DNA of 64,000 bases from the NCBI GenBank assembly GCA_963969395.1, contig OZ017796.1, positions 5,086,501 to 5,150,500 on the forward strand, given 5' to 3'. Below, piece after piece: positions 10,045 through 53,512 of the stretch. The translations under genes and the position numbers were made by a program. Position 1 is the stretch's first letter. Each line of letters begins with the position of its first letter. Below the pieces are notes generated by a model. The model did not search any database. It worked only from the letters and a program-made list of their open reading frames with translations, and was not told where the DNA came from. The stretch comes from Pseudoscleropodium purum (taxonomy: Eukaryota > Streptophyta > Bryopsida > Hypnales > Brachytheciaceae).

Positions 10045-11385
10045 CTACTCTACAACCCTAGATCCTATTGTCGGGCTTCCGCTCTCCGGAACCAGCTGTT
10101 CGAAGACTTCACTCAAGTTCCGGTTCCGTTCCCCCTCCGCAGGGTTAGATCCGGGTGAAGACTCCAGGTCGATTGTAATATCCGGTCTCGTGCTCGGAGT
10201 CTCAGTCCATATAGACTTCTTGGACTCGGGAGTCCAATCCTTCCCACCCTTCGGAATGGTCGCATCCGGAAAGATATCCGGTAGTAAGAGGTCCAAGAGA
10301 TGTATCCCCTTGGAGCACGTCGCTCCAGTCAGCTTCCGGCTGCTTTCCTCAATCCGGTCCGCAGCCTTCCGCCCCTCCACCATCGCCGTCTCCACCTGCT
10401 CAGCAAAGTCAGTGAGAATCCGGACCATTCGGGAACTGGATAGTTTCTTCTCCTCGTGGATCTTCTCGTCGAAGAGCTTCGCTTTGGTGGCGGCCGTTCC
10501 GGTCGCTCCCAGGGTGGCCTTGATTTGCTCGGCTATCTTCCGAGTCTCCTTCGCCATCTCCCGGGTGGCCGTCACGTCTTCCCGATAGGCAAAGAGAGTT
10601 GCCTTCAGGGTGTCCACTTCCTCCTGCAGCCGGCGGATCTCCGCTTCCTGTTTCCGGGTCTCTTCCGGATTGGTGATGCACTCCGCCACCTGTTCCGCCA
10701 ACTTACTGTCCGGTGGCGCATCTACCAACTTTCCGATCGCCAAAAGCGTTCTGTGCTTGACCTCCCAATCCGCCTTGATGTTGCAGAGGAGGTTGATGAG
10801 GCCATTGAACGGATCTTGCACTTCCGGGTCTTCCCCGGAAACGGTCTTCTCGACTTCCGCTCTTTCTTCCGGGTCCGGTTTGTCGTGACCGGGAGGTGTC
10901 CCGCGCTTGTGGGGAGGCGTCATCTTCTGTTGCTTGATGGGCGGCATCGGCTCCTCTTCCTCGCTTGACTCCCGGTCTGACCCGGAATCGGACTCGGCCT
11001 CGTCATCCGTTTCCGACTCCCCATACTTCAGGAGGACTTCTTGAGTTCTCCACACCTTCTCCTCCGCGTCGGTGAGGACTTGGTGTTCCCGATAGAGGTG
11101 GAAGAGGTAAAGGCACACTGGACTGGCCCTCTTCTTCCCAACTCTACTAATGAGTTGGGCCACGAGATCGGAAATGATCCGTGCCCAGTCCACTTTCCGG
11201 GTACCACTTAGGGCACCGAAAATGGTGTTGCCAAGGGTGATCGTCACCCTGGTCGGCTTTTCCGAGTGAAGGACCGGAACCAAGAACTGCAGAAGCTGAC
11301 GGTGTCGGTCATCCACGCAATCCTCGACCGCGTACCCGTCCTTCGGATTGATGGCCCCCCTGGAATTTGCCCCGGACGAACTCAT
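10045..11385 (-). CDS. Unknown acidic coiled-coil protein of the copy 1 element (main frame)
   Basis: A 446-codon open frame with strong codon structure. From the N-terminus: a conserved block around DDRHRQLLQFLVPVLHSEKPT (residues about 26-46), a globular region to about residue 120, a very acidic linker (about 125-155, Asp/Glu/Ser-rich), a Pro/Lys-rich stretch, a long heptad-like coiled coil (about 240-350), and a charged C-terminus. I recognise no domain. The decayed copy 2 shows that the true protein started further upstream: this frame joins the preceding one (11309-11701) at a run of six C near 11355-11360, where a one-base length change separates the two frames. The ATG at 11385 is therefore probably not the original start. 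A gag-like or accessory protein of the element is possible but unproven. Confidence 0.6.
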   Translation of the reverse strand: MSSSGANSRGAINPKDGYAVEDCVDDRHRQLLQFLVPVLHSEKPTRVTITLGNTIFGALSGTRKVDWARIISDLVAQLISRVGKKRASPVCLYLFHLYREHQVLTDAEEKVWRTQEVLLKYGESETDDEAESDSGSDRESSEEEEPMPPIKQQKMTPPHKRGTPPGHDKPDPEERAEVEKTVSGEDPEVQDPFNGLINLLCNIKADWEVKHRTLLAIGKLVDAPPDSKLAEQVAECITNPEETRKQEAEIRRLQEEVDTLKATLFAYREDVTATREMAKETRKIAEQIKATLGATGTAATKAKLFDEKIHEEKKLSSSRMVRILTDFAEQVETAMVEGRKAADRIEESSRKLTGATCSKGIHLLDLLLPDIFPDATIPKGGKDWTPESKKSIWTETPSTRPDITIDLESSPGSNPAEGERNRNLSEVFEQLVPESGSPTIGSRVVE

Positions 11386-11701
11386 CCTTCCGGTTTGCCA
11401 TTCCTAACCCTCCTGCCCGGAAACCGTAAACACCTCTCCACATTTCCTCGTTCCAACGGCTAGGGGATCCTCTCACGGTGTTATCAAATTGGTTGGACAG
11501 TTTGCCAAGGAATTCCTTGACCATTCTCTCCTCCCTAAAATCCCAGGGTTTCTCGGCAAACCCTAGGCAACCCATAGAGGTGAGGTCCTCCATGAGTTGA
11601 GACTTTTCCGGCTCTGTGGAGGGAATAACCGGAATGACTTTCCGGAGCTTCACCTTGCCTCCAAAGGGACTCGTTGGTCTCGACCTACGTAGCGGCGGCA
11701 T
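11309..11701 (-). CDS. N-terminal part of the copy 1 element protein (other frame)
   Basis: Begins at ATG 11701 with MPPLRRSRPTSP and includes MGCLGFAEKPWDF and FLGKLSNQF. In copy 2 the matching segment (from 19148 downward, with IGCIGLLDRPWNM) runs on in the same frame into the block that, here, is read in the next frame. This supports one ancestral protein of about 560 residues, now split by a one-base slip. Function unknown. A minus-strand TATA box lies about 170 bases upstream. Confidence 0.55.
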   Translation of the reverse strand: MPPLRRSRPTSPFGGKVKLRKVIPVIPSTEPEKSQLMEDLTSMGCLGFAEKPWDFREERMVKEFLGKLSNQFDNTVRGSPSRWNEEMWRGVYGFRAGGLGMANRKDEFVRGKFQGGHQSEGRVRGRGLRG

Positions 11702-11866
11702 TCCCACTCCAATCTATCTCACTCTCTCCTAGCCGCACGTCCCTTTCCTCACGTTCTCTCTCCGATCTCAACCGGAATCGAAGCAAGCAGCACACAAACG
11801 CAAAAACTCAACCACGCACGCTCAAGGTCGAGTTTCTAAAATGGGGTGCAACAGTGACGGCTCCTC

Positions 11867-12671: not shown

Positions 12672-14572
12672 TTTATAGTAGATGGCTCTAATTCAAACCC
12701 TCTTCTTCAAACCATCTATAAGTGGCTTCAAAAGCAATAGTCACTAGATGTGAGTTGAAATGTTTATAATGTCAAAGCATTAATGAGATTTGTTCATACT
12801 TCTTTAATGGATGGAATAAGAGCCAAGAAGGGTCCATTTCAAAACCAAGGTGTGTTCATCTAATTTTTCTAAATTGAAAGTGATTGCCTAACTACCTTCT
12901 TACACATGTTCAAAGAATGTAGGGTTCATTTAAGTTTAATCGGGGTCACATTTAGTAACTTTGTGTGTTACTTTTTGAATGCCTCACTGCATGTTTTTGA
13001 TCTAGCCATATTTTTTTCAGACTACGCGTGTATGAGTTTTGCAAGGCCTAAGATCACAAATAGGTATTTATTGCAGAATTCTTTGGAAATTCATAAGTAA
13101 TTCATAAATGCTCCAAAAAAATATAAAACCACTTGCTTTAAATTTCACATCAAATTTTCTTTGAATGAAAAATAAGGAAAAATAATTTTGGACATCTAAC
13201 ACCTATTTTAAAGGCTGACCAACCTTTAAAGTGACGATTTATTAGTACACTACCTTATGCAATAAAAATGGTATGGCAAGGTTGGAAGTATTGGGCAGAT
13301 GATCTTATCGAATAGACTATGTTGGTGGACTACAAAAAATGGTAAAAATGGTAGAAGCAACGCAATAGTTAAATGTTTGTAGGAATTTTTGAAAACTAAA
13401 TGTCGGGCATGCTACTAAGTCATGTGGTGGTGGAAAGGTAGTTGTTGGGTGAAGGCCATTTGACATTGTTCCTATAGAAGCAACAAATGCATTGCATCAA
13501 AAATGCAAAGCCAAAATTCATTAGCTGGACAATGAACAAGGATTTAGCAATTGCAAACCTAAGTAAGGGTGGGTACATTGTAGGATGTAGGCAGTTGAAG
13601 CTACAACTAACAAAAAATAGAAGGGAAGGAAAATAGTTGGAGATGTTGACAATTTCCTTGCCCATCAACACTTTGCCGTTGCCCCTCCATTGTAGCAACC
13701 ATGAAGCACGCACTTGTAGATCAACTTGCACGGCAATAACTTATGGCAACAAAATTGTGTCCATCTTTCCATCTCAAGACTTGTTCGACTGGCTTTTTTT
13801 GTGCTCCAAATCAATATAACATGTGCCACATTACATCGAGCTACGGCTCTATGATTTTCTAAATCAAGTAGAATCAAAGGCAAAAAATAAGATTCTAATG
13901 CACTATGATAAATACTTATTATTGAGTTTTTTGTAATAAATATTCACTAATGGAATGCAAGCTATATGCTCTCAAGATTCCTGTGGAACTAAAGTAGTGT
14001 GCTCATAAATTGTCCTTTTAAAGGTTGGTCAACCTTAAAGATGGATGTTAGATGCTCAAAATTATTTTTCCTTATTTTTCACTCAAAGAAAAATTGATGT
14101 GGAATCTAATACAAGTGGTTTCATATTTTTTTGGAGCATTTATAAATTATTTATAAGTTTTCAAAGAATTTTGCAATAAACACCTATTTGTAATCTTAGG
14201 CCTTACAAAACCCACATATGCGTAGTTTGAAAAAAGGTATGGCTAAATCAAAAACAAGAAATAAGGCATTCAAAAAGTAATACACATGGTTCCTAAATGT
14301 AACCTTTACTAAACTTAAATGAACCCTACATTATTTTAACATGTATAAGAAGGTAGTTGGGCAAAATGTTCTCATTTTAGAAAATTAGGTGAATACATCT
14401 TGGTTTTGAAATGGACCCTCTTTTACTCTCATTCTATCCGTTAGAAAAGTATGAACAAATCTCATTAATGCTTTGACATTATGAGCATTCCAATTCACAT
14501 CCAATGACTATTACTTTTGAAACCACCTATGGGATGGTTTGAAGAAGGTCAGAATTAGAGCAAAATACTATA
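12672..14572. mobile_element. Element with ~580 bp inverted arms (foldback or MULE-like)
   Basis: The left arm (about 12672-13262) and right arm (about 13994-14572) are inverted copies of each other with many point differences. They share CTCTAATTC, TTCTTCAAACCATC, AGATTTGTTCATACTT and CCTTCTTACACATG, and both end inward near the GGTTGGTCAACCTTTAAAG region. About 730 bp of unrelated sequence separates them. A third copy of the left arm stands alone at 56941-57533, and a rearranged partial copy lies at about 50822-51105. The centre has only weak minus-strand frames (13420-13731) that match nothing I know. Long terminal inverted repeats suggest a Mutator-like or foldback DNA transposon. Confidence 0.65.
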
Positions 14573-14689
14573 GTCCATTGCTTTGTTCTTCAAACTTTAT
14601 AAATCAATCTTCTAAAATTCTATGCAAATCCTTATGCAATTTTTTTTGCCTAATCTAATGCAACTACCCTTTTTTTAAGGGAGACGGCC

Positions 14690-15060
14690 TATTTTGAAGC
14701 ATGTAAGGAATCGTAGGGTATATAGAGTGCAGATTTCTTGAATGCAAAGATTTTTCCTAATGTAAAAATAGAGTTTAGAGGGATAATATGATTTTACAAT
14801 TCTTTTTTATTCAAAATATAATTATCATAAGTTTTTAGCTGAATTATACTATATGACCTATTCTAGTCATATAAACTTTTCTATTTCCAACCATGGATTG
14901 GTTGCTGAATCAACCAAGGGTTGGTTGCAATATTGAGAGCCTAACAATCAATGATAATGCACCACAACTATTTTGGGAATTGCATCACAATTGCACAAAA
15001 AGAGATCAATTTATAGGTTGGAAATGGGGGGGTGATCTGAAATGGGTCAACTTCTACAAA
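14690..15060. repeat. Dispersed repeat, family D copy
   Basis: Aligns by eye over about 360 bp with 57835-58185 in the same orientation. Both contain AGAGTGCAGATTT, CTTTTCTATTTCCAACCAT, GTTGCAATATTGAGAG and AAAGATCAAT. A partial copy is at the start of the window. In two cases it lies just downstream of a long inverted arm (12672-14572; 56941-57533), so it may be part of that larger element. Confidence 0.6.
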
Positions 15061-19616: not shown

Positions 19617-20285
19617 TAGATTTATATATACATAGAAAGATTTGAATCATTCCACTTTGATTAATGAGATGAAAACTAGGAGGAGTTTTAGATTGAAGGT
19701 AGCTATAGAAGCTCTACTTTAAAATAAACTTTGAAGTCCTTTATTTCACTCAATTTTCAATATTTTAGGGAAAAAAAATCATAGGATGTAGATTGTCTAT
19801 TAATAAAACATTACAACCACTGGAATTGGCACTTTTCAATTCAAGAACTAAATTCTTAACAATTTAGTATTTTGAATCTTTCTCTATTTTTTTTAATTAC
19901 TATTTTTTTCCTATGTGTTGTACAATTCCAAATGTTTTGAAAATTTTTCAAGCATATAGCTAACTTGACTTGAAGAATGAATCCAAAGAAGCACCATAAT
20001 TTTGGACACTTTTTTTATACAAATGTGACCTTGTGAAGTGCAGTTGCTAGATTTTTCAAAGGGCACAAAAAAATAATGTTGTAAATTCAAATGCTAGTAT
20101 CTTGCAATCTACATGGTGGAAATTTCTGAAATTTTTTACACATCTTTTCAAACCAATTTCCTACAAGATCCTACAGTTACATGAGTCCAAAAATGTATTT
20201 TTCCTAAAATTTGAAACTTGTACAAGAAATGACAGTTTTGAAGTGTATTTGGTGAAAATTTAGTCAAGGAACTTTTAGGGGTTAA

Positions 20286-21235
20286 GACTATTTGTAATGA
20301 GTGCTTAATATTTAAATCTTTTGGGGAGAGGTGGAATATTTGCATTGTATTCTTGTAGATAGCTATCTAAAGGTTGAAGTATTGGTCATCTCTAGTATAG
20401 GTTCAATTGTAGTATCTTTCATTTCTTGAATTAAAATTTATGAGTGTTTGAAGGATGGGTCTTTCTAGTCACTACTGTGTAAGTTGAATATTACTTTGAA
20501 TTGTTAAGCTTCAATTGATGATATCAATTGTCAATAGTTCAATCTTACAAAAAAATTACATATTATTTAACATAAAATTATTTATTAGTCATAGGAAGGT
20601 CTTCTATATTCCAAGAATTACTATAAAAAAACAAGGCCTAAATCAAGATGTCCAAATTGAACCAATACAATTCTATCCAAAGTTGTTGAATCAAGATGTT
20701 TGAACCAACTTAAAATTGTTGATTCGGGTTGTATTTTTTTGTAGTCAATATAAAAATATTCAACACAATTACAGAAGCTAGATTACCCACATAAAAACCT
20801 ACATAATTGGTTTTATGGACTACCTAATACTAGTAGAATTACTAGTATAGGTTTGTATGAAGTCTTATTGCTTGTTGCTCCAAAATCTCAATTTCTTTTA
20901 GTGCAAGTATCTTTGAATTTATTTTTTCATATTCCAATATTCTCTTAGGACCCATATCTATTATAATTACTCCATACCATTATTCAACAATTAGCCATTA
21001 GTGTCTTAAGAAGTCATTAAAGCATAGAGTTGCTAGCGTGCGTCCATGAGCCTATGAGTGGAAAAAAATTTTAACAAAAAAAAGATGAAGGACCTATGAC
21101 TGTGGATGTTTGTAAATTTTATTTAATAGAAATGTTAATTCATTTAAGAAAAAATTAGATCACTTAGGAGACCTTTTAATCAATTTTTCATTTCAATAAG
21201 CAATTGAATTTCATTTTAATCCTGAAGTCCCATTG
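20286..21235. other. Intergenic, nothing recognised
   Basis: AT-rich sequence with short frames only (for example 20515-20703 plus). No family, RNA gene or element end identified. Confidence 0.5.
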
Positions 21236-21239
21236 TCCC

Positions 21240-21445
21240 TTCAAAGGACAAAAAGGATAGGGCGGCTGGTTGGAACAAATTTCCTGCCTAATGATTATTC
21301 ACTAGTAGTACCAAACCATGTATATCATGCTATTGCTCAAATAGATCTAATGGGAATCAAACCCAGACCAAATAAATATGATACATAGTTCTTATCCAAC
21401 TAGTCTATGAACTCATGACTTGGTGACCTACCACCACTACACATT
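21240..21445 (-). mobile_element. tRNA-derived SINE-like element
   Basis: On the minus strand, TAGACTAGTTGGATAAG (A box-like, near 21410) is followed about 35 bases later by GGTTTGATTCCC (B box, near 21350). This spacing fits an internal RNA polymerase III promoter. The tail runs toward 21240. There is no tRNA cloverleaf with a complete acceptor stem, so this reads as a SINE head rather than a tRNA gene. Confidence 0.5.
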
Positions 21446-22283
21446 GCATTTAAGACTCATTTATCCAACCCTCTTAAATCTCATTTGGTTTAGGGTTGTT
21501 ACTAATAACTAAAGTATTCATTCTTGAAAGGGAGGAGTGGTTCTACATCAAAGCCCTTGATGTAGTGGACATCAGCTCATTGTCATGACAAATAGGCACT
21601 TTACATTACAAAAAATTTCAACCCTCAGGAGGTCTGCAAGTTTAGAACCCCCAAAGTGCAATTAGAGAAGAAATAATGTTTTGTTTTTTGTTTTTTTTAT
21701 AATTTTTTTAATGAAAGATGCTGATGTGGCACTACTTGTACCACGTTAGCGCCATGTCAAGCTATCATACTTTTTAAATTTTTTTAATATTAAAAAAAAA
21801 ATTATTTTTTTATTTTTCTTTACTTGCATAGTTGCATTGTGGGGTGCCAAAAAATGAATCTTTAACAACCCTCTATAGGGTTCAGATTTTTTCTAAAGTT
21901 CACTCCGGCCCCCTTTAAGGATTGAAATACTTTTAATTATATATATATTTTTAAATTTTTTTATCATTTAGAGTTTAGAGAAATTCTGAATATATTGTAG
22001 ACATGAATTATATTTAAATTGTTCGAATTCATTTCAAGAGTTATAAATTGTTCAAACTCATTTCATTTATTGAATAATATAATAGTTTGGAACTGGATAT
22101 GATGTATAAAAAGGCTTGTAGCTAAGTAACTAAATGTATTTTACTTTTGTAATGAGATTGGACTACAATAGTATAAAAGGAAATAAATCGCATCCAATAT
22201 ATAGCTATAAAACACACAAATCCAATCATAATATAAATCAGTACATGATAGTTTGCCTCATAAGATATATCAGTCTCATCAAT
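21446..22283. other. Intergenic, AT-rich, nothing recognised
   Basis: Contains long T and A runs (21680-21830) and no coding signal. It lies downstream of the ParB-methyltransferase pseudogene's last exon. Confidence 0.5.
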
Positions 22284-22623
22284 CTATGTCATAGTGGACA
22301 CGGGCACGGAATCCGCAGTGCTAGAAGATTCAAAAGTTTCTCTACCCTCTAAAGCTAAACCATCTATAAAATCTAAAATATTCAAAGCATATGTAGGTTT
22401 TTTGCATTTTGGGCACCCAAACTTTGCAAATGTCGATGCTATCTGCTTGGCATATATAGGAAGATCAAAGGACTTCTCTGGACTTAAGAGAAGATTCATT
22501 TTTTTAATGATTCACATCTACTCATCAGTTCTTCCCTGTTGCAAAGACAAATCAATTAATGTTAGTTTCATCAAACATTATAAACATTATGCTCTATACA
22601 AATTCAAAATGGTGGAAACTTAC

Positions 22624-23660
22624 ATACTAAATCTATCCTTTCAAAAAAAAATTTGAGGCATGACATTTATGGTGTCCGGATCTTGTGAAGCTACCACTAG
22701 TAGAGGCTCTTGAATGACTTTAGCTATCACCAAGACCTCAGTAGGCTTCTTCATGGGAAACAAGACGGCGTTGAAGATCTCCTTGTCCACCTCCAACACC
22801 ACTATGTGGTAGCTAGTGCCACGACATGCACTAATAGATGCTCCTATTATAAATAATTCCTACTAATTAGTTAAATGAATTAGTTCATAAATTAAAACTT
22901 TAAAGTGAAATAAAAAATTAAAGAAAACTTACTTGTAGATGCAATACAGTCTAGTACCGAATTCCCTTCTTCCATTGTTCCTTCAATAAAGAACTGAAGA
23001 AACCTTGCATCTTTCTTTTGAGCCCCCCTCCACGGTTTTGATGTTGCTTCATTTACCAACATAGTGTCCTCTGTGGTGTAATTTAGGTACTTTTTGTCAC
23101 GACAAAGGTCAACTTTTGCCTTCTTGTGAGCTTCTATAAACTTGTAACAGAACTTTGATTTTCCGTTAACACCAAGATCCTTCACCAAGACCGTTATTCC
23201 AAACTTCAAAGTCTACAAGGATCCAAAGAAATGTGTATTAGAATCAAATAACACAAAACAAATAGCCAATTATTCATAAAATCATACAAAATATAAGAAA
23301 ATATACCGTGGCGGAGTTGTCCAAAGCCGACATCAAGTGCATATGATTGTATCCCACCCATTCGGACTTCTACACTAATTTAGGGTACGCATTACATAGT
23401 CCTACAATGACACCTTTCAAAGCAATACACTAAGAATGGAATACAATCATGCATCCATTGTCCTACAAATGAGTTTTTGCAAAAAGAAATGTATTATTAA
23501 GAATCTTGTACTTTAGGTCAGAATTCCACTTTAGCACGGATCGCGTCGAAGAAGAAACTTTTGGAACTGGCAAATTCTCTTAGCAATCAAATAGTATGAG
23601 GTCCACTCTTGGATGACTCTTCACAACACCATTGTACGTGAGAGCCTTCCCTCACGCCAA
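22624..23660 (-). other. Methyltransferase-like C-terminal region of the fusion pseudogene
   Basis: In order: HPRVDLILFDC then a TAA and ENLP (near 23590, at the place of the DPPY-type catalytic motif); DNGCMIVFHS (exon 23307-23462), like the Gly-x-hydrophobic strand after that motif; SKPWRGAQKKDARFL and GNSVLDCIAST (exon 22933-23212), matching the K-P...VLDxxAxxG SAM-binding pattern; then ISACRGTSYHIVVLEVDKEIF (22640-22843), matching the following R...IxxE/D element. The order, catalytic motif before SAM-binding motif, fits permuted (beta-type) N4/N6 amino-methyltransferases. The catalytic motif is not a clean DPPY, so activity even in the ancestor is uncertain. Confidence 0.6.
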
Positions 23661-24669
23661 CTTCAAAATACAAAAATTATTAATATTTAATCAATAATTA
23701 CAACATATAGGTTCCATACATATGAAAAAATCTTTAATTTAAAATTTTCAAATTATGGAATTTACCTTCTTAAAAAATTCCATAACCTCGGTGTAGCAAT
23801 TTGGAAATGCTTCTTCTATGTCATCTTGAACATCTATGATAGACACATTTAAGATCAAATCTTATTAAGTCACGTCAACATTATCACCAAGAATAATGAT
23901 TTACGTTCCTTATATGACCATCTCCTCCGTTAGCTCTAGTAATACTTCCTTCCGCTTCATTCTGTAAGATCCACCCTACATCGATCCACTGTTGAAGACA
24001 CAAGAGCTTGGCCAACTCCTTCAACCTCTTCTTTCCTTTGCCTTTTTTCTTCCCATCTTTCTATAACTCCTCCTTCTCCACAAGCTTCAGTAAGCGCTCT
24101 ACTTCTTTTTTCTCCTTGCTTGCTTGAATCTCTTGTATTTTGTCGTCCTTTTTCTTGTCTACAGCAATCCTCTTTGCAAAGGCCTTTTTCTTTTGCGCTT
24201 CACTAAGATCAGCCACTCTGGAACATCCAAGTCAATAGCACCAAGACCAACAAAGGACTTTCAAAACAAAGACTTTAAAGGGGGTATATACGTCATTGGA
24301 CAATCTATATACCATCCCCCACTAGAAAGGTTTGTGGTTATGAATGTCCAAAGTTCAGTTGTTGTATACATGCACTTAGATTGAATTCCAATCCAACCAT
24401 GTTGTGAGAAATGGAAGAAGATCCTCCCTAGCAATAGCATTTTTAGGTAGAAGCTCATATTTAAAATACCTGCACCCCCAGAAATTAATTTTTGACAATT
24501 AATACAAATGAATCCCATAAAACATTGATAAATACTTAGTTACAAGTAATAGAATTAACAATTACTACAAGTACCTCAAAATAATTGAAAACCATAATAC
24601 AGAAAAGAAAAAAAACATTTATTTCTACATACTCCTATTAAAAACTCTCATTAAATTAATGCGGAAACT

Positions 24670-24756
24670 AGAATTTGGAGTATTGTGAGATACCTCCAAA
24701 ACTACCATTGGGTCCGTCGGTAGTTCCTGAAGTACCTCACAATACCCCAACTTCTG
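24670..24756. mobile_element. Hairpin MITE, copy a
   Basis: A near-perfect inverted repeat: left arm TTGGAGTATTGTGAGATACC..., right arm ...GGTAGTTCCTGAAGTACCTC, meeting at a short GGTCCGTCGG-like centre. It lies in the intron between exons 24817-25127 and 23905-24469 of the fusion pseudogene. The same element recurs at 28056-28154 and 30135-30232, with a collapsed copy at 30333-30377. Confidence 0.7.
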
Positions 24757-26168
24757 GACTAAGCGTAAATTTAAAAAAATATTCTCCTAAAAATAATTTT
24801 CATTCCCATTGCTTACAAATTGTTTACAAAAAGAAAAATAATGATTGAGGCCTTGCAATAATATCAAGAAATGACTCGTTTCACAATCAAGTCAGATCCA
24901 TCAAAGTCGAAAAAGTTCTCTGATTTTTTAAAAGAATTCTAGCCCTTCAACATATGCTCAAATGTGTCAATCCAAATCTTCTGCCTTCAACCTTCAATGT
25001 ATTCTGGAAGAGTCTTTGGACGAAGAGGTGTTTTCATATTGATGCGGATGTTGTCTTTGTAAATCACATCCTCAAAAAACTCTATAGTAGCTTCTTTGAT
25101 CTATATGAGAAATACATTCAACTTGTACTTAGTGACATGAAGGCTACTCAACATTTTATAAATTCAAATGGAAGGCAACTTAGAAAATTCAAACTAGACA
25201 TATAAACCTCAAAATTTGAACTCAAAATCCATTGAATGAATTTACCCCCGCCCCCTTAACAAATTTGTTAAAAAATGGCCTAAATTTATCTTCCAAAATA
25301 GGCTTAATTGGGAAGTGCCTAGCTTTTCGTGAAGCATCTAAGTTATTCCACCACTTCAATAATTTAATCTTTTGGACGGTAGATACAATGTATGTTGCAA
25401 TGTTTTGCAATTTTTCAAGGGTTATTTCTGGAACCTCATTTTTGATCCAATGCTATTCCACCTAGAACAAATAATGTATAAATGCGAACTCCGAAATGCC
25501 ACATTCAATGCCTACAAAGAAAATTCTTCTTAGGTCTAAAAATTTACCTCCTCAAGAAAGCTTGGACCATGTATGGGACTTGCCACTACCAAGTACTTCC
25601 CCATTTTTGTTATCAACTTCTAGACCTTCTCATTAGCTCCACTTTGCATAGCATCCGCAATCCCTTGATCTGTCTTGTCCTCCAACGTTGTCATTTCATG
25701 GTACTTTTGTACCATGAGGTCTATTGTTTAGGCAATTTCTTACTACGACAAACCCAAAATATTAAAATTATTAAACGTTTCAAAGAAACATAACAAACAA
25801 TTATACTTTTTGAATTCAAAAAAATAAAAATTTTAATATTTCTTCAAAAACATGACTTGCTCAAAAAGTAATAGCTATAAAAACCTCAACTAGCATGGTA
25901 TACCAATGTTTCCTTTGATGGACACTACACCATCTCTTCTCCAATGGCCTAAGCATCTCTTCAAATTGTTCATAGGGAAGAAGCCCATATTTCTAAATTC
26001 AGTATAATTCATGCACCAAATTTGTTTTGACATGTGAGTCCTCTGTAGCTCTACAAGTCAATCAATTACACAATCAAATAAAAAAAATTTGGATTTTAAT
26101 ATCACTAACAATGTTAACTCATTATAAGCAAAGTCAGTGGACAAATTGAAAGAAACAAAGTAACTTAC

Positions 26169-26803
26169 TTGTTGATATCATGCATTGTTTGCATGATAAG
26201 TTCAATTTTCCCCTTTGTGTCCAACACTATGCAATCGATATTGTAGTGCCATCTTGGGTCAACTATATACTTCCGGTTAATGAGGTTCATCCAAGCAATG
26301 CATCAATGATTGCCGTCGCAAATAAAGAACTTCATGTTCTTTAGAAAACTCAGCTCTAACACTGACTGAAGATAGTCATTGAACTCATCATTTACTTTCT
26401 TCCACAATGAGTCCTACTTATTAATTTCATTTGTAGAAAAGTTGAAACTTTGGCTAGCCTCATTTATTGTTGAGACATAAAAAACTACTACCCCCTCTTG
26501 GTACCTGTGAGCAAACTCGTTCTCCAGTTTCTTAATGTCAAAAACAAGGGTAGGCCTTACCATCGGCATTGACACTAAGTGGCACAAAGGAATGCGCAAT
26601 CTTGAGTGCCTTTCAGGCCTCATCTTCAAATTCGCAATTGTTGCTATAGAGTCAAACTTTTGAAGTCAGTGCAATTCATCTTCCATCAACTCCTTCTCCT
26701 GATCCTTGTCATCTTTCCTAAGCATTGTAGGATCTCCAACCTCACCTTCAATCTCAGGTTGTTCACTCTCATCCATCCCCGATGTCTCTAGTGCATAAGC
26801 TGT
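26169..26803 (-). other. ParB/sulfiredoxin-like domain exon of the fusion pseudogene
   Basis: After an acceptor ending TTTCACACAG, the exon encodes an acidic lead (TSGMDESEQPEIEGE), then RPTLVFDIKKLENEF, LWKKVNDEFNDYL, and MKFFICDGNH followed by a TGA and CIAWMNLINRKY. The TGA would be CGA (Arg) before one C-to-T change at a CpG. That would give DGNHR, close to the D-G-x-H-R signature of ParB-like nuclease/CTPase and sulfiredoxin folds. It ends DPRWHYNIDCIVLDT...MHDINK before a consensus GTAAGT donor. Three stops in this exon: TGA, TAG, TGA. The fold call is motif-based. Confidence 0.6.
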
Positions 26804-28055
26804 CTGTGTGAAAGCAAGTGGTAACTCATCGGTTTGCACAAAAGAAATTCACTTCATAAGATATATCACCCACATACAATTACAGCATAAACGTTTTTCA
26901 AACAAGGTTTTCAATAAAAGAAAATTAAAAAAACATCCAATAAAAAAAATATAATGCATATGATTTCATAATTGAGGTCCATAATTGATTAGATACTTGT
27001 CCAAGAAAAATTGCAAAAGACAATTTGAAAACAAAAAAGCACCCACAATGTGGTAGTTTGATTCAATTTCAATCAATATCTATGCTACAATTTGAGTTTG
27101 AATTCAAGTGGATCAAAACAACTTCTTGCCTCCCAACAATCCCACTACATGCACAATCTAACAATTGAAACTAAAGACTAGAGATTAAAATAGAAGATTG
27201 CATCGAGGAAGTATACTTTGTACTAGAACTCTTAGGTGAGAACATAGGTTGCCTGCCTTTCCTCTATAGAAACAAAGGCAATTTATCTTTTCTCTATAAA
27301 AACAATGGTTACTTGACCTTTCTCTTCCTCTCATTACTAATGTGACTTTCATGTGGGACTTCAACATAGTCACACGCCCGGTCATATGCATCCAAAACAT
27401 TGCCAAAGCTTACCAAGTCTGTAGTGTCTTGGAGATCCGAGTCAATGATAAAATCCTCAACCACATTTCCCGGACTCAAATGACCTTCTATAAGAGCCAT
27501 TTACATAATGAAGAACAAAGTATTAGTCTTACAATTTGAAATTGAGGGCCTTTAAGTAAAAATTATGACATACTGCTTGGAATACCATTGCTACAAAATT
27601 AACCATAGAGTGCATATATTTGTAATCAATAGGATGAACAAACATGATCTAATTTTTACCTCATCTATATTTGTGGAAATGAAGTTTGGTGAGGTTTCTT
27701 CTATGTTAATACAATAGAAACTCTAAGTGCTTGAAGAAGCTTACAAGTCCTTGTATATAAGGTGTTTAGAAGGTTTGATTTCATCCAATACATATTAATC
27801 ATAACAAATTCAATATAAGTTTAAGTCTCTTTACACTACTTTGAATTAATAATTATACAATATAAAAATAAAAGTTCATTTGAAAATGATAAAAAAAACT
27901 TCTGATTACTTTACTAAACTCTGAACTAAACAAATTTATTTAAAAAAATACATATTCAATATGAAGTCTTCATTACTTAAAGAGAAATTCAAATTACAAT
28001 AGAGACATAAAATGTTTTTTGTACCTACTCTATACAAATGTAAGTATCTATATCA

Positions 28056-28154
28056 AAGACGGATTTTGGGAGTACTAGGAGGTACTCCTAAAACTACTAG
28101 CAAATCCGATGGTAGTTTGGGTGGTATCTTCCAGTACCCCCAAAATCGGTCTTC
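28056..28154. mobile_element. Hairpin MITE, copy b
   Basis: Ends AAGACGGATTTTGGGAGTACT and AGTACCCCCAAAATCGGTCTT are inverted repeats. The centre is CTAGCAAATCCGATGG. It is the same family as the copies at 24670 and 30135. It lies just upstream of the fusion pseudogene's first clear exon, or in its first intron if the exon at 30496-30648 belongs to it. Confidence 0.7.
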
Positions 28155-28360
28155 TTAACACAAAAGAGGTCAAATTTTTCCTTTCTTTTATTTGAAGTAT
28201 TAAACTCTTTAATTGGCAATTTTCAAGAGACTTACAATATTTTCGAGATATGAATAATGATTTGGATTAAAGATATTATTATTGTCACGTTCATGACTAT
28301 CCTACAAGGCATCATCTTCTATCCTTGTAGACTCAGTAATTGTAGCAGGAAGCTAAGGGG

Positions 28361-30134: not shown

Positions 30135-30232
30135 AGTTCGATTTTTTGGGATACTGCAAGATACCCCCAAAACTATCGTCGGGTCCGCCGGTAGTTTTGG
30201 GGATACCTCGCAGTACCCGAAAAATCGAACCC
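30135..30232. mobile_element. Hairpin MITE, copy c (best preserved)
   Basis: The left arm begins AGAGTTCGATTTTTTGGGATACTGC; the right arm ends GCAGTACCCGAAAAATCGAACC. The two pair with few mismatches around the centre TCGTCGGGTCCGCCGG. CpG sites are intact, so this copy is probably the youngest of the four. Confidence 0.75.
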
Positions 30233-33594: not shown

Positions 33595-36000
33595 GCACAT
33601 ATTCCCAGATCTCCTAAGCTTGTGAAAACTAGTAGAATCAATGCAGAAGAGTTTCCTCTATGTTCATGTTGCAGCAATTGCATTTTACATCAATATTTGG
33701 GTTGATACGGGCTCTTCATACATGCACCGCTACCGCATTGTGCCATACCGACCACGTGAAAGCTGATTCTTTCTGTGAGTGAGTCTTATGCCATAAGTCT
33801 TTCCAGTTAGGTGAGAAATCCATTGGAAGATGACCTGACTACTTCGAAGGGATGGACCTTTTGAGTTGGCGGTTCCCTGTAAGAATCTGCCTTCCCAACG
33901 CAGTTGTATACGACATATATTGATTACCATCAGGCCAGCTCCATCTTGAAGGATCAAAGGTCAGCGACTGAATGGCTCCAGCAAAATACAGGGTTGGGGT
34001 TGAACCTGAACCTTTAGCGATCTGGAGAATTCGAACTCTTCTAACGTAACCCTGTTAACTCTCCCTTAAATCTGACTGCCAGATGATTGAAAGCTGTCTG
34101 GAATAAGTTCCAATCATAGCTGTGTCGTTCGTTGGGGGCAGAAGGAAATTCTGGACTTGTGTCGAAGGAATTCTAAATTGCGGACTTTTGCTTTTCCATG
34201 TGATGGTGGGCAGTTCGTCTTGCATGTCTCCGAAGATGCCTAGCCATTGGCCATCTTGCACAATGTCATATTGTCTGGTGAGATAGACCAGCCATTCATG
34301 GGGTATATGCGAGATCAAATATCTCCACTTCCCCTGTTCATTGTCTGAGAGGTTGAAACTTCCTGCAACATCATCCCAAGTCCGAAAATCTTGCAAGTCT
34401 TGTCCCACAGGTCAACTATGGGTCTGAGACCTATTCGAGCTAACTCCCGGGCCCTGGTTACAGTAAATTGGAAGTTGGATCCGATGAATCTAGATGTCCA
34501 CCAAAGGTTAGTGGTAAGTACCTCGTCTGCGTTCGTCGGTGGTAACGGTTCGATGTGTTGAACGAGTTTTTTCCATGCAATTGTCACGCTGTTTCAAACG
34601 CGAGAACCTCGAGACACAGATGCCTTGTTTACCATGAGCAAAATCGGTGATGAGTATCAAAACCCGCCTTTAGGATCTGGCTTCATTCGAAGTATCCTGT
34701 ATCTGAGCAAAGTTTTCAGGTTCGAGATCCCCGGCTCGATTGCGAACAGTATCCATTTGGCTAGGAGGGTCGTGAGTGAGACTTCCGGGTCAAGTAACTT
34801 GAGACCTCCTAGATCCTTTGTGAGGCAGCAATTGTCCCAGTTTACTCTTGGTGTTGCCGTATGTTCTGATCCACTCCATTGGTAGTTTCTGAGACTTGCC
34901 CGAATTGAGCGTAATGCTTGAAGGGAAACACTCCAAATCACGATGAAGTAGTACAAGGTTGAGAGTAGTATGGCGTTGATTATCGTCACTCTGCCGGCTA
35001 GGGATAGATGCTGTGTAGTCCAGTATTGAAGCTTCTTCTTAATTTTCTGTTACAGAAAATCGTCTACATCGACAGTCTCCAACGTGATCCCAAAAGGTGC
35101 TCCGAGCAGCGTGGTAATGGAACCTGTAGGTGCCCAAATTAGGTGGAACTGCTCTGTCCATGCCGGTCTCTCAAGCTTGGAGAACCAATAACCTGTACTT
35201 TTGACCCAATTGATGGTTAGATCGGACGCCAGGCCAAATTTTTTAAGTAATAATATTGAGTTTCGAAGGAAAAGCTCTGTTCCTGTAAAAGATATCCCAG
35301 TATCGTCAGCATACTGTGAGACTAATTGGTATGAATCACTATCGGGTAGCTGAATACCCTGTATTCGACCCATCTTCTATTCTACAGCGGCAGCCATATT
35401 GAGAGCCTCCCCTACTAATAAGAAAAGGTAAGGCGTATGGCAAAAGATTTAGTACCTGAACCATTCAGAAAGATATTTGCTGATGCATCTTGAAGAAGCA
35501 ACTTTACCAGATGTGAGAAGGAATGGGGTATACCTATATGGTACAAGACCTGGAACAGGAAATCCCACGATACAACATCAAACGCTTTTGTGAAATCTAA
35601 CTTCAAGAAGATGAGATCCTGGTTGGATTCCTTAACCCACTCTACCGTTTCATGTTGCAAGAGAATATTAGCCAGGATGTGTCTAGAGGGCAGGAACGCT
35701 GATTGTTCCGGGTTGATGACGTCTTTCAGGATGTACTGAAGTCGTATCTGTAAAGCTTTCGCGAGTATCTTGTAAGAGACGTTTAATAGCGTTATTGGCC
35801 TCCAGTTCGATAGATTGGAAGGCTCCCCAGACTTGAAAAGTAAAACAGTAGTACCGGAGTTCATACCAGTGGGTAGCCGACCTTGCCTTACTGCTTCCTG
35901 TAGCATTACGGTGAACTCCTCTCCTAGCATATCCCAGAATCGGCAGAAAAATTCAGTTGTGATTCCATCTGGGCCTGGGCTCCTTCCTTTCGCCATCTGT
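33595..36000 (-). mobile_element. L1-type LINE, 5'-truncated, decayed
   Basis: A non-LTR retrotransposon relic read on the minus strand. It starts abruptly at about 36000 with AKGRSPGPDGITTEFF and continues through NWRPITLLNVSYKILAKAL and QSAFLPSRHI, LDFTKAFDVVSWDFL (first catalytic Asp), QYADDTG (YADD catalytic pair, near 35310) and GGLKLLDP (near 34800). A C-terminal zf-RVT-like region has CNCCNM (near 33680). The reverse transcriptase fingers and palm are present; the endonuclease and first ORF are missing, as expected from 5' truncation during target-primed insertion. Several frameshifts and stops inactivate it. CpG content is still fairly high, so it is younger than the region's other relics. 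Confidence 0.85.
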
Positions 36001-37720
36001 TCACTTTTTTCACTCTTACTTTCGCCAATAATTCGCTTTTTTCACTCTTACTCGGTTTTCGCATTAATTGCTTTCGAGAATATTGATGCTCATGTTCATC
36101 TGTAACTGCGTCAGCATCAGCTGCGCTGTTACTTATTTGGCCTCAAAAGTCTTGCATTGGCAAAGAGACCGGTAGTACTAGGACTAAATCTACGACTGAA
36201 ATGAGAGAAATTTTAGTTACGAAACTAGTTCCGATCGAGAGCCTGGTAAGATCCTCTCGTTTTCTCTTTATGCACCACTCCTTTCTGCATGCTAGCAGCC
36301 AAAGGAATCTAATGGCCCCATATTCATTTTCTAATGCTAATTTTCCAGCATCTCCTGCGCAAGTGCGCTAGAACCTGTACGTAAGCCATAGTCAGGGTCA
36401 GAAAGGAGAGACGTCATTATGCAATCCCCATCGAGCAATTCACGTGGCCCTGGCCCCGCCTCATCCCGGCTTTGTTGCTGCCTGGACAAAGGCTTTCTTC
36501 CTCACCTGTACGCTTCGTTGTTGGTCTAAGTTATCATGGTCTTCAGATTTCTCCTCGGCAGAGACCGAGAGACATGGGGAGAGTTAAGAGTGTGATGACA
36601 AGTTCAATTCGAAGAAAGAACGAAGGAAGGGTAGGAAGGAAACTGGGGGCCTTGCATTGCAGATGCAAGTATTGGGGTGTTTTCAGTCTGCTCGTTTCTG
36701 GGAGCAGGATTCCAGGATTTGCCACATGACTGCATCCTGATTATCGGCTAATTAAAGAGCAGATTGCGTGTCCTAGCCTCCCGCCAGGATTCTTACTTGT
36801 CCCAACTTCATTCCGAGAAGAAATTCTTTTTTCATGAACTTAACGTCTCTCAAATCCATGTAATTAAAAATTGCTTGATGACTCATGAACAATGCTTGAA
36901 TGATGACCTCTTCATGATAGAGTTTCCTATTGGAAGCTCTATGAGAAAACTTGCCGAATCCACAATCTTGTAGGTGTAGTTGCCCCCAAGTACAAGCTGA
37001 AATAACAACACACAATATATTCAAGGCCAGGAAACGAATCAACCATCGCACTGGAATCAATCAGCAATCGGTTGTGTGAGAAGCAATCATGGCTTCCGGG
37101 GACGAAGACGTGCAATTTGTTAGATAGATGAGAATGAGCTTGTCACCAAAACCCAAGCTAGGTCCCAGACAGGTTTCAAAATGACTTCAGTACATACTAG
37201 CAAATGAACCTTTGTTACCGTTTGCTTTTCTGTTCTCTCTTGAAAAGATTTCAGCAATGCCCTCGGGACTTTTTGATGTAGCTAGACAACAGGTTGAAGA
37301 GCTCCTACTGGGCTTCTTAACGAGCTCAAATTCAATTCGGTCTTCTTCATCTTCTCCCCGTGAGGTACTTTGGTGGTTTTTAAAAAATGAATGAAGGATG
37401 ACTAGCTTGGGGATTAAGATGAAGTAGAATAGCTAGACCACGCAAACCCTGCGAAGTACGTGCAAGCGCTAGCTCTTGTACGTCCATATGAAGAAGAGAA
37501 GTTCGAAGAGGCGTGTGAGGAGGAGCATGCTCGTGCAACAAACAGGGGAGAGGGAAAAGAGATTCCTGTGCCTTCGTTGACAACGGAGAAGATGATAAAC
37601 TCTGGGTGGGTTCGAGCCCTCTGGGCAGATGGAGCTGGGTAAGAGTGGAGTACTGTGAAGGGCAGCTTGTCCAGGCAGCGACAAAGCCGGAATGAGGCGG
37701 GCCCTAGACCACTTGAATTG
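36001..37720. other. Upstream region of the P450, no gene supported
   Basis: Between the LINE and the P450 promoter. It has no recognised coding exon or element. A short direct repeat (TTCACTCTTACT, twice within 36005-36055) lies next to the LINE break. GC content is higher than the AT-rich filler elsewhere. Confidence 0.45.
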
Positions 37721-37723: not shown

Positions 37724-37846
37724 GATGGGGGCCGTGTGCGAAACGTCTCGCGTCAGAGGCTGAAGATGGGGGCCGTGTGCGAAACGTCTCGCGTCAGAGG
37801 CTGAAGATGGGGACCGTGTGCGAAACGTCTCGCGTCAGAGGCTGAA
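37724..37846. repeat. Three perfect-phase 41 bp tandem units upstream of the P450
   Basis: Units at 37724-37764, 37765-37805 and 37806-37846 differ by about one base. Each holds GAAACGTCTCGCGTCAGAGG, so each carries an ACGT core and, on the other strand, TGACG eight bases away (TGACGCGAGACGT). These are cores recognised by plant bZIP/TGA factors. The array ends about 147 bases upstream of the TATA box. Near identity and intact CpGs mean recent expansion. A role in P450 expression is inference. Confidence 0.85.
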
Positions 37847-37992
37847 GAGGAAAGGGACTCTAGATTGACACGTTTGAAAAGCGTGCATACGACCTTTACT
37901 TACAAATCTCACCGCATCTTACCTCATACATACGATCACAACAAACTTTCTGTACGCCACCCACACCGAGAAGAAGTAACAAGCAGCGAGCT

Positions 37993-38002
37993 AGTATATA
38001 TG
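37993..38002 (+). promoter_or_regulatory. TATA box of the P450 gene
   Basis: AGTATATATG stands about 70 bases before ATG 38069. This implies a transcription start near 38025-38035 and a short leader. It also rules out the further-upstream ATG at 37865, which would lie before the promoter. Confidence 0.65.
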
Positions 38003-38068
38003 TTCCCCAAGCATGCTCTGGAGTTTGTGAGATTCTCGTGCTCGCTGGAAGGTGACGCAACAGAATCT

Positions 38069-39995
38069 ATGGCGATGGAGTCTCTTCGAGAATCGTGGGG
38101 CAATGCCTCGGAGTCATGGTGGGCTGTGGCGATGATGGTGACGACACTTGCGACTCTTTTGTGGTTTGTGATGAACCTCCGAAGTGAAAGAGCGAAATTG
38201 CCGCCAGGGCCGAGGCCGCTGCCATTGATTGGAAATTTGCACCAGTACGGCGAACTTCCTCATCAAACTCTCTGGCATATGTCGGAGAAATTCGGGCCCA
38301 TCATGTACCTGCGCATGGGCGCAAACCCTATGGTGATCGCTTCCACGGCCGATGCGGCCCAGGAGTTTTTGAAGGTGCAGGATAAGTCATGGGCGAGTCG
38401 CCCGCAAACGAGCGCGGCGGGGAAAGTATTCTCCAACAACTTCCGGAACGTGGGGCTCGCGCCCTATGGCCCGCATTGGCGTCACATGCGGAAGATCTGC
38501 ATGCAGGAGCTTTTCACGCAGAAGCGGATGGACTCATTTCGGACGCCCCGCGGCGAGGAGTTTGGTCTGATGGTGAAGTCGATTTACGAAGACTCCTTGG
38601 AAGGAAAGAATGTTCCGCTGACGATGCAGGTGTCTCTCCTTGCTAACAACAACCTCACACGCATGCTGCTCGGCAAAAGGTGAGCTAGCGTTTGGGAATC
38701 ATCTTCTCAAACGGGCATTCTCGGGAGAAATTCAATTCTTTTCACAGCATGTCTTTGGGAATCATTCTCTCAAGAATTCTCTGCATTCATTCAATTTCTT
38801 CTTACATATATTTCTTTAGGAATCTTTCTCTCGGGAATTCACGGCACCCATTCAACTCGTTTTAATTACAGACATACATGTTATTGAGAATCATCCTATT
38901 GGGCATCCTCCACATTCATTCAATTCTGTTTACATCCATGCCTTTCGGTGCAATCCATTCCTTGTGCACCAACTGGTAGAAACTTTCTTTGCTGTGAATT
39001 GAAAAGTAATTTGTGCTGTGACTTGATGTTTATGGGACAGATTGTTTGGGACGAACCAAGCTGGTCAGGTGGAGGCTCACCGGCTGAAGCAGCTCAACTT
39101 CGAGATTTTTACCCTCTTCAGCACCATGAACGTGGGCGACTGCTTCCCCTGGTTGAAATGGACCACCCACCTTACCGGCTACGTCCGCCACTTGCACAAA
39201 GTGCAAAAAGATATGGACGCCTTCTTTCAGGAGTTTCTGGACGTGAAGAAGAATGGCACTCCCACGGACGCCTCCCGTGGGGAAGATCTAGTGGATGTCC
39301 TCCTCACGCAGCCTTCCGAGAGTGGCGATGGCCGTCTGGATGATGATGCCATCAAGGGCGTCATCACGGACATGCTCTTGGCCGGCTCCGATACCTCCTC
39401 CAACACAGTGGAATGGGCGATTGCGGCTCTCGTGCGACATCCCCACGTCCTTTGCAAGCTCCAAGCCGAGCTCGACGCCGTGGTCGGTAGCACGCGAATC
39501 GTCACGGAAACCGACCTCTTGAGCTTGCCGTACCTCCAGGCCGTAGTGAAGGAGACGTTCCGACTCTTCCCGCCTGCGCCGCTCAGCATGCCCCACACAT
39601 CAACGGAGTCGACCTCCGTTTGGGGATACGAGCTTCCCACAAAGACTACCCTTTTAGTGAACATTTATGCAATTCATCGTGATCCCGGCATGTGGGAGCG
39701 ACCTCTGGAGTTTGATCCGGAGAGGTTTGTATTGCACCCGGAGATTGATATGAGAGGGAACCACTTCGGGCTCATTCCATTTGGAGCAGGACGCAGGCAG
39801 TGCCCTGGGATGTCGTTGGGCCTTCTGTTTGTGCAAATGGGGGTCGCACGACTAGTGCAAGCATTTGATTTTGGGTTGCCGGATGGGATGGTGGCTGAGG
39901 AGCTGGATATGTCGGAGTTGTTTAATCTTGGTATGCCGCGGAAGGTGCCACTGGTGGTGGTAGCGAAGCCGCGGTTGCCAAAGCATTTGTATTGA
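38069..39995 (+). CDS. Cytochrome P450, A-type (CYP71 clan)
   Basis: Two exons, 38069-38679 and 39041-39995, joined across a 361 bp GT...AG intron (AAAAG/GTGAGC; TGGGACAG/ATTG), give 521 residues, normal for the family. In order: N-terminal membrane anchor (about 17-37), proline hinge PPGPRP (45-50), I-helix AGSDTS (318-323), K-helix ETFR (375-378), FDPERF (428-433), haem loop PFGAGRRQCPG (450-460) with Cys458 as the iron ligand. It should be an ER-anchored, NADPH-reductase-dependent monooxygenase of specialised metabolism. The I-helix and haem loop resemble flavonoid hydroxylase-type and related families, but I cannot name family or substrate. ATGGCGATGG at 38069 is a good start context; Met3 is an alternative. 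No stops or frameshifts; GC far above its flanks. Confidence 0.93.
38692..38945 (+). repeat. Four degenerate ~63 bp tandem units inside the P450 intron
   Basis: Units begin near 38692, 38755, 38816 and 38884. Each reads roughly TTGGGAATCATTCTCTC, then a GCATTC segment, ATTCAATTC and a T-rich end with ACATnnATG. They make up most of the 361 bp intron. Confidence 0.7.
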
Positions 39996-46267: not shown

Positions 46268-46500
46268 ACACTATAGATGGCTATGTGTGGCACAATTCAA
46301 AATGCTCAACTTCTTTCACTATTGATATTATATAGCATATGACTTCATTAGTACAAAAGTCTCACTGTGAATGTCATGAACAACACTATAGATGGCTATA
46401 TGTGGCACAATTCAAAATGCTCAACTTCTTTCACTATTGATATTATATAGCATATGACTTCATTAGTACAAAAGTCTCACTGTGAATGTCATGAACAACA
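46268..46500. repeat. Recent 115 bp tandem duplication
   Basis: 46268-46382 and 46383-46497 are almost identical (one clear difference, TGTGTGG versus TATGTGG). Non-coding. The low divergence marks it as recent in an otherwise old, decayed region. Confidence 0.9.
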
Positions 46501-46699
46501 CCAACATGTCTATTGGAACATTTTATATGGCTATATGAGAAGGAAATATGTGTCCTCTATAATGTTGCCAAGCAACTATAATGTTTCTAAAGGTGCTGAT
46601 ATAATAGAAACAAATGGATTCAATCAATATTTAATCTACTTCAAGATTACCATTTTCATATAATATATTTTCATATATGTCATATACAATGAGGATGAA

Positions 46700-51576: not shown

Positions 51577-52535
51577 TTGACCCCTAAACGTTTTCGACTA
51601 TGTTTTCACCAAAAACATTCTAAAACTGCCATTTCTAGTGTAAGTATCAAATTTTAAAAAATATATATATTTTTGGACACAAGTAATCATAGGATCTTGT
51701 AGTAAACTATTTTGAAAAAATGTGGTAAAAATTTCAGAAATTTTCATGATGTCGATTGCAAGATATTAGCATTTGAACTTACAAAAATTGTTTTTTTTCC
51801 CTGCAAAAATTCGAGGAACTCCACTTCACTAGGTCACATTTACATTAAAAAATGTCCAAAATGGTGGTTACTCTTTAAATTCATTCTTCAAAGAAAGCTG
51901 GCTACATGTTTGAAAATTCTTAGATCATTTGGAATTGTACAACATATAGGAAAAAAATAGTAAGTAGAATGCAATAGAGAATGATTCAAAGTACTAAGTT
52001 GTTAATAGTTTCTTTATGGAATTGAAAAATCCCAATCCCAATGGTTGAAATGTGATAATAAACAATGTACACCTAATTTTTATTTATTTTTCCATAAATA
52101 TTTAAAATTGAGTAAAATATAGGGCTTCAAAGTTTATTTAAGAGTAGAGATTCCATAACTATCCACAAACTACCCCAGACTAAAACTCCTTATAACTTTT
52201 GATTCATCCATCCAAATGGAATGTTTCAAAGCTTTCCATGTAGATATAAATCTAAAGAATTAATTTCAAATTTTAATTTTTGAAAAAAACTATTTTTGAA
52301 GAAGTGTTTTTTTATTGCCCAAGCTACTTGTTGAACGTTGGAAATCACATTTCATATAATAACTTTTTAGCCATGTAATCAAAAGTTATAAAAATTGTTG
52401 GGCCTTAAGAGATACTCCTCGAGAAAATGTTGTGTGAAAATTTCAAAGGAAAAAAATTTTAAAAATCCATCCATAGTGAGCTATCCAAAATTGCTATGTT
52501 GCCAAAAAAATGGGGTTTAGGGCTTTAGGGGTTAA
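51577..52535. mobile_element. piggyBac-type MITE (family A), inverted copy
   Basis: The left end TTGA + CCCCTAAACG (TTAA decayed) and the right end GGCTTTAGGGG + TTAA. It is the inverted relative of 15776-20285 (without its insert) and 61819-62735. Internal blocks include AACTGCCATTT and AAGTTATAAAAATTGTTGGGCC. The small frame 51712-51960 is a product of the repeat. Confidence 0.8.
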
Positions 52536-52799
52536 GAACCGCCCCTATAGAAGTCTCTAAAACAGTGCAAAGGAGATGCAAAAATGAAAATGATTTTATG
52601 TAGTGACAAATTGCCATCCCATGTGTGTGATTTTAGGCTATCAATCAAGTGACATAGTTCACCATCATGTGTAGTTTTACTCATAATAAAGGCCTGAATT
52701 TGATGAGGTCTACAAAATGACTTTGAAATGTCAAAAAATAGCAAAGAAAAATTGAAATGAGGCTGAACTTCTTTCTACTAAAATTCTTCTCAATCACTC

Positions 52800-53280
52800 A
52801 TACTCTCTTGGATTGATGTGAAATTTTAACCATACAAATTAGACTAGTATGCAAAACTTTTAAAAAAAATTAATTAGAAATTGACATTATGTGAAGAAGA
52901 AACAAGTCGTCAAAGTTTATTGTGATCCAAAAATGTGGAGATTTTTTAACTTTAAATTCCTCCCAAACATTCAAAACAACTTGGATTGACATGAAATTTT
53001 AACCACAATAACTAGACTTCAAGGGGAACATAATCCAATAATTTTTTTAAGAATGAACATAGAATGAAGGAGATACAAGCCCCCAAAGTTGCAATATTCA
53101 AATACAGTTAAGTGGGCTCAATTTGAACCTCTGAACTTCGATTGGCTTACAAATAATCTGAAAATTTTACCACACAAACTAGAAGAAAGAGAAAACATTT
53201 TCTAACAAATTTTATTGAATTTTGACATTGGATGCAAAAGTTACAGCATTTTGAATTCAACTTCAAACAAAGTAATGACT
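52800..53280. repeat. Satellite-like degenerate tandem repeat, period ~170 bp
   Basis: The anchor GGATTGATGTGAAATTTTAACC recurs at about 52811, 52983 (GGATTGACATGAAATTTTAACC) and, more diverged, near 53150 (CTGAAAATTTTACCACACAAACTAG). Each is followed by AAACATT/GAATTTGACATT-like and CAAAGTT segments. About three units, strongly diverged. Confidence 0.55.
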
Positions 53281-53446
53281 AGTATCTATTGACAGTGGAC
53301 ATATGACACATCCCGCTATGTCATGATTTGGACATCAAGTGAATAATTTCACCATTGACATGAATGTTGATAGCATTTTATTTCTCGTTTTTTGTACTCG
53401 CATAACATTCAATAGCAGTTAGTGACTCTGCCCTCCCTCCAATTGA

Positions 53447-53512
53447 ATGGTGTGTAATATTCCACACCATTTCATCCACCAGATGTAATGGTGTGAAATA
53501 TTACACACCCAT
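53447..53512. repeat. Near-perfect 66 bp hairpin
   Basis: The arms ATGGTGTGTAATATTCCACA and TGTGAAATATTACACACCCA (reverse complements with two mismatches) enclose the loop TTCATCCACCAGATGT. Each arm is itself partly palindromic around AATATT. Non-coding; origin unknown. Confidence 0.8.

Follow-up and report, generated by a model that had tools for sequence, protein, structure and literature searches.

A stretch of 64,000 nucleotides from the moss Pseudoscleropodium purum (GenBank assembly GCA_963969395.1, contig OZ017796.1, positions 5,086,501 to 5,150,500; hereafter the window) carries on its minus strand a degraded copy of an intron-bearing, repeated gene. We read it, with a probability of about one half, as a decayed copy of a mobile-element gene whose product combines a predicted ParB/sulfiredoxin fold with an N6/N4-methyltransferase-like domain devoid of DPPY, and which would serve the element as its own DNA-binding factor. 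Since the usual catalytic motif is missing, the protein is likely to be a DNA-binding helper of the element and not an enzyme that methylates DNA. ParB-type proteins are known from bacteria, plasmids and phages. If this reading is correct, self-recognition of the ParB–parS kind extends to eukaryotic transposons, in the form of an intron-bearing gene for a ParB/sulfiredoxin fold and palindromes private to the element. It would also give plant elements a second route, beside that of the VANC proteins, for recognising their own DNA.

An intron-bearing gene in decay

Between 27500 and 22281 the minus strand carries coding-like blocks, separated by AT-rich gaps that in most cases are bounded by GT and AG. 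Their joined translation is 1,115 residues long and contains 23 stops, written as X. The first eleven blocks (3,092 bases) contain 22 stops in the coding frame against 65 and 93 in the other sense frames, whereas 500 base shuffles of the same bases gave a mean of 75 and a minimum of 53; stops are thus rarer in the coding frame than chance allows. Exons are richer in guanine and cytosine than introns (0.396 vs 0.272), and the codon positions differ in base use. The initial annotation had described a single protein of about 1,100 residues in thirteen exons. The single protein is confirmed, but not the exon number: the family model built from relatives has eleven exons, and the blocks 24468-23919 and 23833-23766 form one exon (exon 7) that a frameshift splits in the window copy.

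Exon 1 (27318..27500, provisional ends) encodes an acidic N-terminus and resembles exon 1 of the related copy L133, its donor being uncertain. The ParB/sulfiredoxin-like domain lies in exon 2 (26169..26803), and the ParB-like region continues in exon 3 (25885..26050; ATEDSHVKTNLVH). Within exon 2, DGNH (26317-26306) is followed by a stop codon, and this codon encodes R in most other copies, as expected from the earlier remark that the motif is one base from DGNHR. Exons 4 (25548..25742) and 5 (25246..25461) precede exon 6 (24876..25100), whose donor, the sixth, appears by eye to be lost in the window copy, and exon 7 (23766..24468), which is rich in lysine and glutamate. The methyltransferase-like domain begins in exon 8 (23307..23660), where the motif IV region reads VDLILFDC-stop-EN without DPPY, continues through exon 9 (22933..23212; SKPWRGAQKKD...VLDCIAST) and ends in exon 10 (22624..22843; ACRG...LEVDKEIF). 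Exon 11 (22281..22535), also on the minus strand like all the others, encodes the C-terminal tail and has a frameshift inside an A run. DLILFDC, GCMIVFHS, SKPWRGAQ and VLDCIAST, previously listed for the C-terminal half, are present in the joined translation, as is VVLEVDKEIF. In the exons compared, a single C>T or G>A change separates 7 of 11 window stops from the sense codon present in another copy, a pattern consistent with decay though no proof of it. Direct searches of a protein collection, Pfam, NCBIfam and PDB with the decayed protein found no relatives.

Exon boundaries taken from L133 were applied to 12 young copies, exon 1 ends again being provisional, and exons 2-11 comprise 1,107-1,112 codons in these copies. 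L145 has no internal stop, one in-frame 3-base difference, no flagged junction and the motif DGNHQ; L141 has no stop, DGNHR and one changed donor; the remaining ten carry 1-35 stops each. The word 'relic' suits the window copy; in another copy of the family exons 2-11 are free of stops. The ratio of nonsynonymous to synonymous substitution rates (dN/dS) was determined for L141 against older copies; dS could be computed in 8 of 14 comparisons and is near saturation in six of these eight, and the ratio in the eight ranges from 0.13 to 0.32. Young copies compared with one another give 0.51, and the window copy against L149 gives 0.46. Because of this pattern, we read selection as acting on the protein along lineages while single copies decay.

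A multi-copy and apparently mobile carrier

Across the 313 Mb genome, the joined window protein matches at least 88 exon places. Twenty stretches were retrieved, and 13 of these belong to a single young lineage. Alignments to L133 span 6.9-7.4 kb for 11 young copies and 4.4 kb for a further one (L139), at 97.5-98.3% identity. The family has many copies and has spread recently. Twelve copies share the right end GCTAGCAACCCT, after which the flank differs in every one, the base directly following being G in 11 of the 12. Many near-identical copies, a sharp end and unrelated flanks, the marks of a mobile element, are thus found together, at the right end only. Read inward, this end starts with CAGGGTTG, which we take to be reminiscent of hAT ends. 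Upstream of the gene, the piece L153:600-3300 is present fully or almost fully at 12 places in the genome, in addition to partial occurrences, and 1.8-2.3 kb ahead of the gene there is a tandem array whose units, variable in number, measure up to ~217 bp. The variable number of these 5' tandem repeats raised the possibility of retrotransposition, which was dismissed since introns are retained in the copies. One copy (copy B) was initially taken as left-truncated, and its coordinates suggest an insertion instead. Part of the upstream region (L153, ~1337-1905) also has 70-73% matches at ~20 other genome places and is perhaps a nested repeat.

The window copy is a member of an older lineage. Its nearest relative among those retrieved is L149, to which it aligns at 80-89% in four pieces (21038..28188, minus strand), with 1,198 differences in 6,608 aligned bases. 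Homology to L149 stops at 21038, and directly beyond it, at 21025..21037, lies the probable right terminus TAGAGTTGCTAGC, two mismatches away from the young CAGGGTTGCTAGC. By our own estimate a match of this quality arises by chance about once per 64 kb, so the argument lies in its position at the end of homology. A comparable right end with two mismatches is present in four of seven older copies checked (L146, L148, L149 and L150) and absent in three. The carrier is apparently a multi-copy mobile element; between the two options left by the initial annotation, a host gene family or the cargo of a transposon, copy number, sharp right end and differing flanks fit a mobile element better.

A predicted ParB/sulfiredoxin fold and a methyltransferase-like domain

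Relatives in the database number 451, of which 83 were aligned to give a family alignment of 84 rows; DGNHR is almost invariant in the 83. The structure predicted from this alignment has a predicted local distance difference test score (pLDDT) of 76.6, and ranks 1-22 of its Foldseek matches, with many repeat entries, are ParB, Noc, PadC or sulfiredoxin proteins, so that a ParB/sulfiredoxin fold is predicted for the domain. ParB and sulfiredoxin bind nucleotide through contact blocks, GERR in ParB and GGCHR in sulfiredoxin. CDGNHR, conserved in the 84 rows, is placed by the model between a strand (174-176) and a helix (179-193), and this position at a strand-helix turn suits a conserved nucleotide-contact block. 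The ParB-like domain proposed initially is thus supported by predicted structure but not by sequence profiles. The exon-2 family matched no ParB profile; PF02195 has no match genome-wide and is not among the families matched by the 84 members, of which 10 match DUF1015 (best 0.002), one DndB and one DUF6551. Against a narrow set of 48 phage ParB-type sequences hhalign detected nothing, exon 2 had no match among phage sequences, and folding of the window exon 2 as a single sequence (pLDDT 41.6) gave no ParB among the Foldseek matches listed.

The N4/N6-type methyltransferase-like domain of the initial annotation is upheld by homology. The L141 region matches PF01555 (N6_N4_Mtase) with E 2.7e-5 and 24.7 bits, under the curated cut-off of 26.7 (19.2 bits for the whole protein), and the PHROG and PDB methyltransferase matches of the relative agree with it. 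These matches are better evidence than a profile test on the window itself, which is partly circular because the viral methyltransferase family was picked after a weak match. In that test, a profile of 99 viral methyltransferases gave 15.3 bits for the spliced window region against 0.6 for its reverse; 4,018 of 5,000 shuffles were reported, the best at 9.5. When the unspliced window was scanned in six frames, the best chunk of the gene ranked second of 712 (2.5 bits vs 3.4 elsewhere) and did not stand out. The window protein has one PHROG methyltransferase match (E 0.016), and its C-terminal part has 16 weak phage matches (E 0.01-10), of which 13 are to genes with the annotation DNA methylase or methyltransferase, one is to a hypothetical protein and two are in unannotated records. 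These are redundant, many coming from near-identical phages (seven Cellulophaga and three Brochothrix records).

In amino-methyltransferases motif IV reads (D/N/S)PP(Y/F/W). A DPPY-type motif IV was found in none of 18 distinct copies, and the motif for binding S-adenosylmethionine (SAM) looks altered by eye (GATG). Because DPPY is missing in all 18, the sequences support homology to N6/N4 methyltransferases but not an active enzyme, and suggest that the fold has been retained without the usual chemistry.

Palindromes and the proposed role

In the young copies, intron 6 contains CCCCTGTCGGATCCGACAGGGG. Allowing up to two mismatches, this palindrome has 34 sites in the genome, and its backward control has none. 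Thirty of the sites share one of three offsets relative to exon 2: 13 are in intron 6 (about +2.1 kb), eight are ~0.75 kb before exon 1 (about -1.6 kb) and nine are between -8.35 and -8.96 kb. The remaining four are further upstream of copies (-10.2, -12.1, -18.6 and -27.6 kb), probably owing to insertions and a partial copy. Equal places inside the young lineage reflect shared descent, and the argument from the palindromes rests on the absence of sites away from copies, recurrence within one element and counterparts in older copies. Indeed, the window copy has a fold-back repeat in intron 6 (24671..24760, positions by eye), the intron that holds two palindromes in young copies, and another ~0.6 kb upstream of exon 1 (28063..28150), compared with ~0.75 kb in young copies. 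A palindrome with 40-nt arms, 83% complementary around the centre TCGGGTCCGC, lies ~2.6 kb upstream (30142..30224). By eye, L146, L149 and L150 carry fold-backs like those of the window, and the fold-backs of older lineages, placed upstream or in intron 6, differ from the young palindromes in their arms and resemble them in their core.

We propose that the ParB-like domain recognises the palindromes of the element (core near TCGGATCCGA) upstream, in the tandem repeats and in intron 6, perhaps while its DGNHR block binds nucleotide in the manner of ParB and sulfiredoxin. The methyltransferase-like half would act as a SAM-pocket or partner-binding module without methylating bases. By loading onto the copies of its own element, the protein could leave these accessible to expression and transposition, a role in anti-silencing or as a transposition accessory that would resemble that of VANC. 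A bolder and rather doubtful extension is a nuclear transposon living on a ParB–parS-like system, in which a clamp joined to a dead methyltransferase on private palindromes would mark the copies, allowing them to evade silencing or to come together for transposition, and the palindrome arms would change in step with the protein between lineages. A single protein and a single 22-bp site would suffice to test the idea of self-recognition.

The most serious alternative concerns the palindromes, which may be hairpins or fold-back inserts akin to miniature inverted-repeat transposable elements, unrelated to the protein. Transposons commonly hold palindromes and tandem repeats, and the young copies inherit theirs jointly; we give this a substantial, if minority, chance against the three fixed offsets, the four remaining sites upstream of copies, the empty control and the presence in old lineages of fold-backs that lie upstream or in intron 6 and have a similar core and different arms. 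That the protein itself mobilises the element, being a transposase of a new kind or the principal subunit of one, is rather improbable. The protein is conserved between lineages, and the part of a young copy that was read has no other open frame above 138 amino acids, but several kb further upstream of that part, with palindromes at ~-8.4 to -9 kb from exon 2, could hold a transposase, and no nuclease family was recognised in the protein.

We consider it improbable to a still greater degree that the protein is an active DNA amino-methyltransferase, methylating its own element with the ParB-like domain for targeting. Homology to N6_N4_Mtase would favour it, as would precedents: dinoflagellate and charophyte retrotransposons carry de novo CG cytosine methyltransferases (PMC5890265), and bdelloid N4CMT and a Marchantia enzyme are working eukaryotic amino-methyltransferases (PMC8885841). 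Against it stand the lack of DPPY in every copy checked and the apparently altered SAM-binding motif, and changing SPPY to APPA abolishes the activity of the rotifer enzyme (PMC8885841). Equally improbable is a host gene family, or functionless cargo copied by duplication or an unrelated transposon: plant transposons often capture passengers, the part of the element read has yielded no transposase and ten of 12 young copies have stops, but the low dN/dS against eight older copies, the 451 relatives with their almost invariant DGNHR, and the sharp right end with differing flanks argue otherwise.

Among described systems, VANC of the Arabidopsis VANDAL elements is similar in layout. VANC21 binds a short motif in the non-coding parts of VANDAL21, where targets are often tandem repeats, and methylation is lost (PMC5735166). 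In both cases the element encodes the protein and carries short sites within its own non-coding sequence, introns and upstream regions among them, and VANC proteins and their targets differ between related elements (PMC5735166). In contrast, the VANC21 motif YAGTATTAY is no palindrome, and the portions of the report concerned mention no ParB or methyltransferase domain (PMC5735166). The likeness is one of site layout only. ParB, Noc, KorB and sulfiredoxin proteins share with the exon-2 domain the predicted fold and a DGNHR-type block, and the palindromic sites have their parallel in parS, which is a palindrome; the differences are an intron-bearing gene in a nuclear repeat family, the lack of a sequence-profile match and the methyltransferase-like partner domain. 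Phages have both kinds of domain, and some of their ParB matches are annotated 'DNA modification methylase', but at the phage locus L101 the gene so annotated has 196 amino acids and only the ParB-like match was seen, and exon 2 of the moss family, as noted, matches no phage sequence.

Retrotransposons bearing DNA methyltransferases are likewise eukaryotic mobile elements with a domain of a methyltransferase family, but theirs is of the C5-cytosine type and was shown to methylate (PMC5890265), whereas here an intron-bearing gene encodes an N6/N4-type domain without DPPY. The Marchantia N4-methylcytosine (4mC) methyltransferase and bdelloid N4CMT are eukaryotic members of the amino-methyltransferase family; as far as the source describes them, the former has no additional N- or C-terminal domains and the latter has a chromodomain and SPPY (PMC8885841). 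Searches of the open-licence literature for ParB combined with plant, moss, transposon or methyltransferase, and for Marchantia 4mC, returned no such system, and nothing there contradicts the earlier statement that no plant system of this layout has been described.

Elsewhere in the window, a region at 10048-11713 (minus strand) has open frames of 452 and 134 amino acids, is GC-rich (0.55) and has no Pfam match. A reverse transcriptase fragment (35418-36041, minus strand; PF00078, E 1.2e-18) looks by eye, together with 34660-35049, which has no Pfam match, like a long interspersed nuclear element. Two open pieces on the plus strand (37805-38680 and 39027-39992; PF00067, E 4.8e-21 and 1.1e-69) belong to a cytochrome P450 that has the look of an ordinary intron-bearing gene. 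Diverged repeat families, some inverted, occur in at least two places (12718-15052 vs 56966-58370; 19617-20284 vs 51665-62735), and tandem repeats of low divergence are found at 46268-46501 (two 115-bp units, 99% alike) and 37724-37848 (three 41-bp units, 98% alike).

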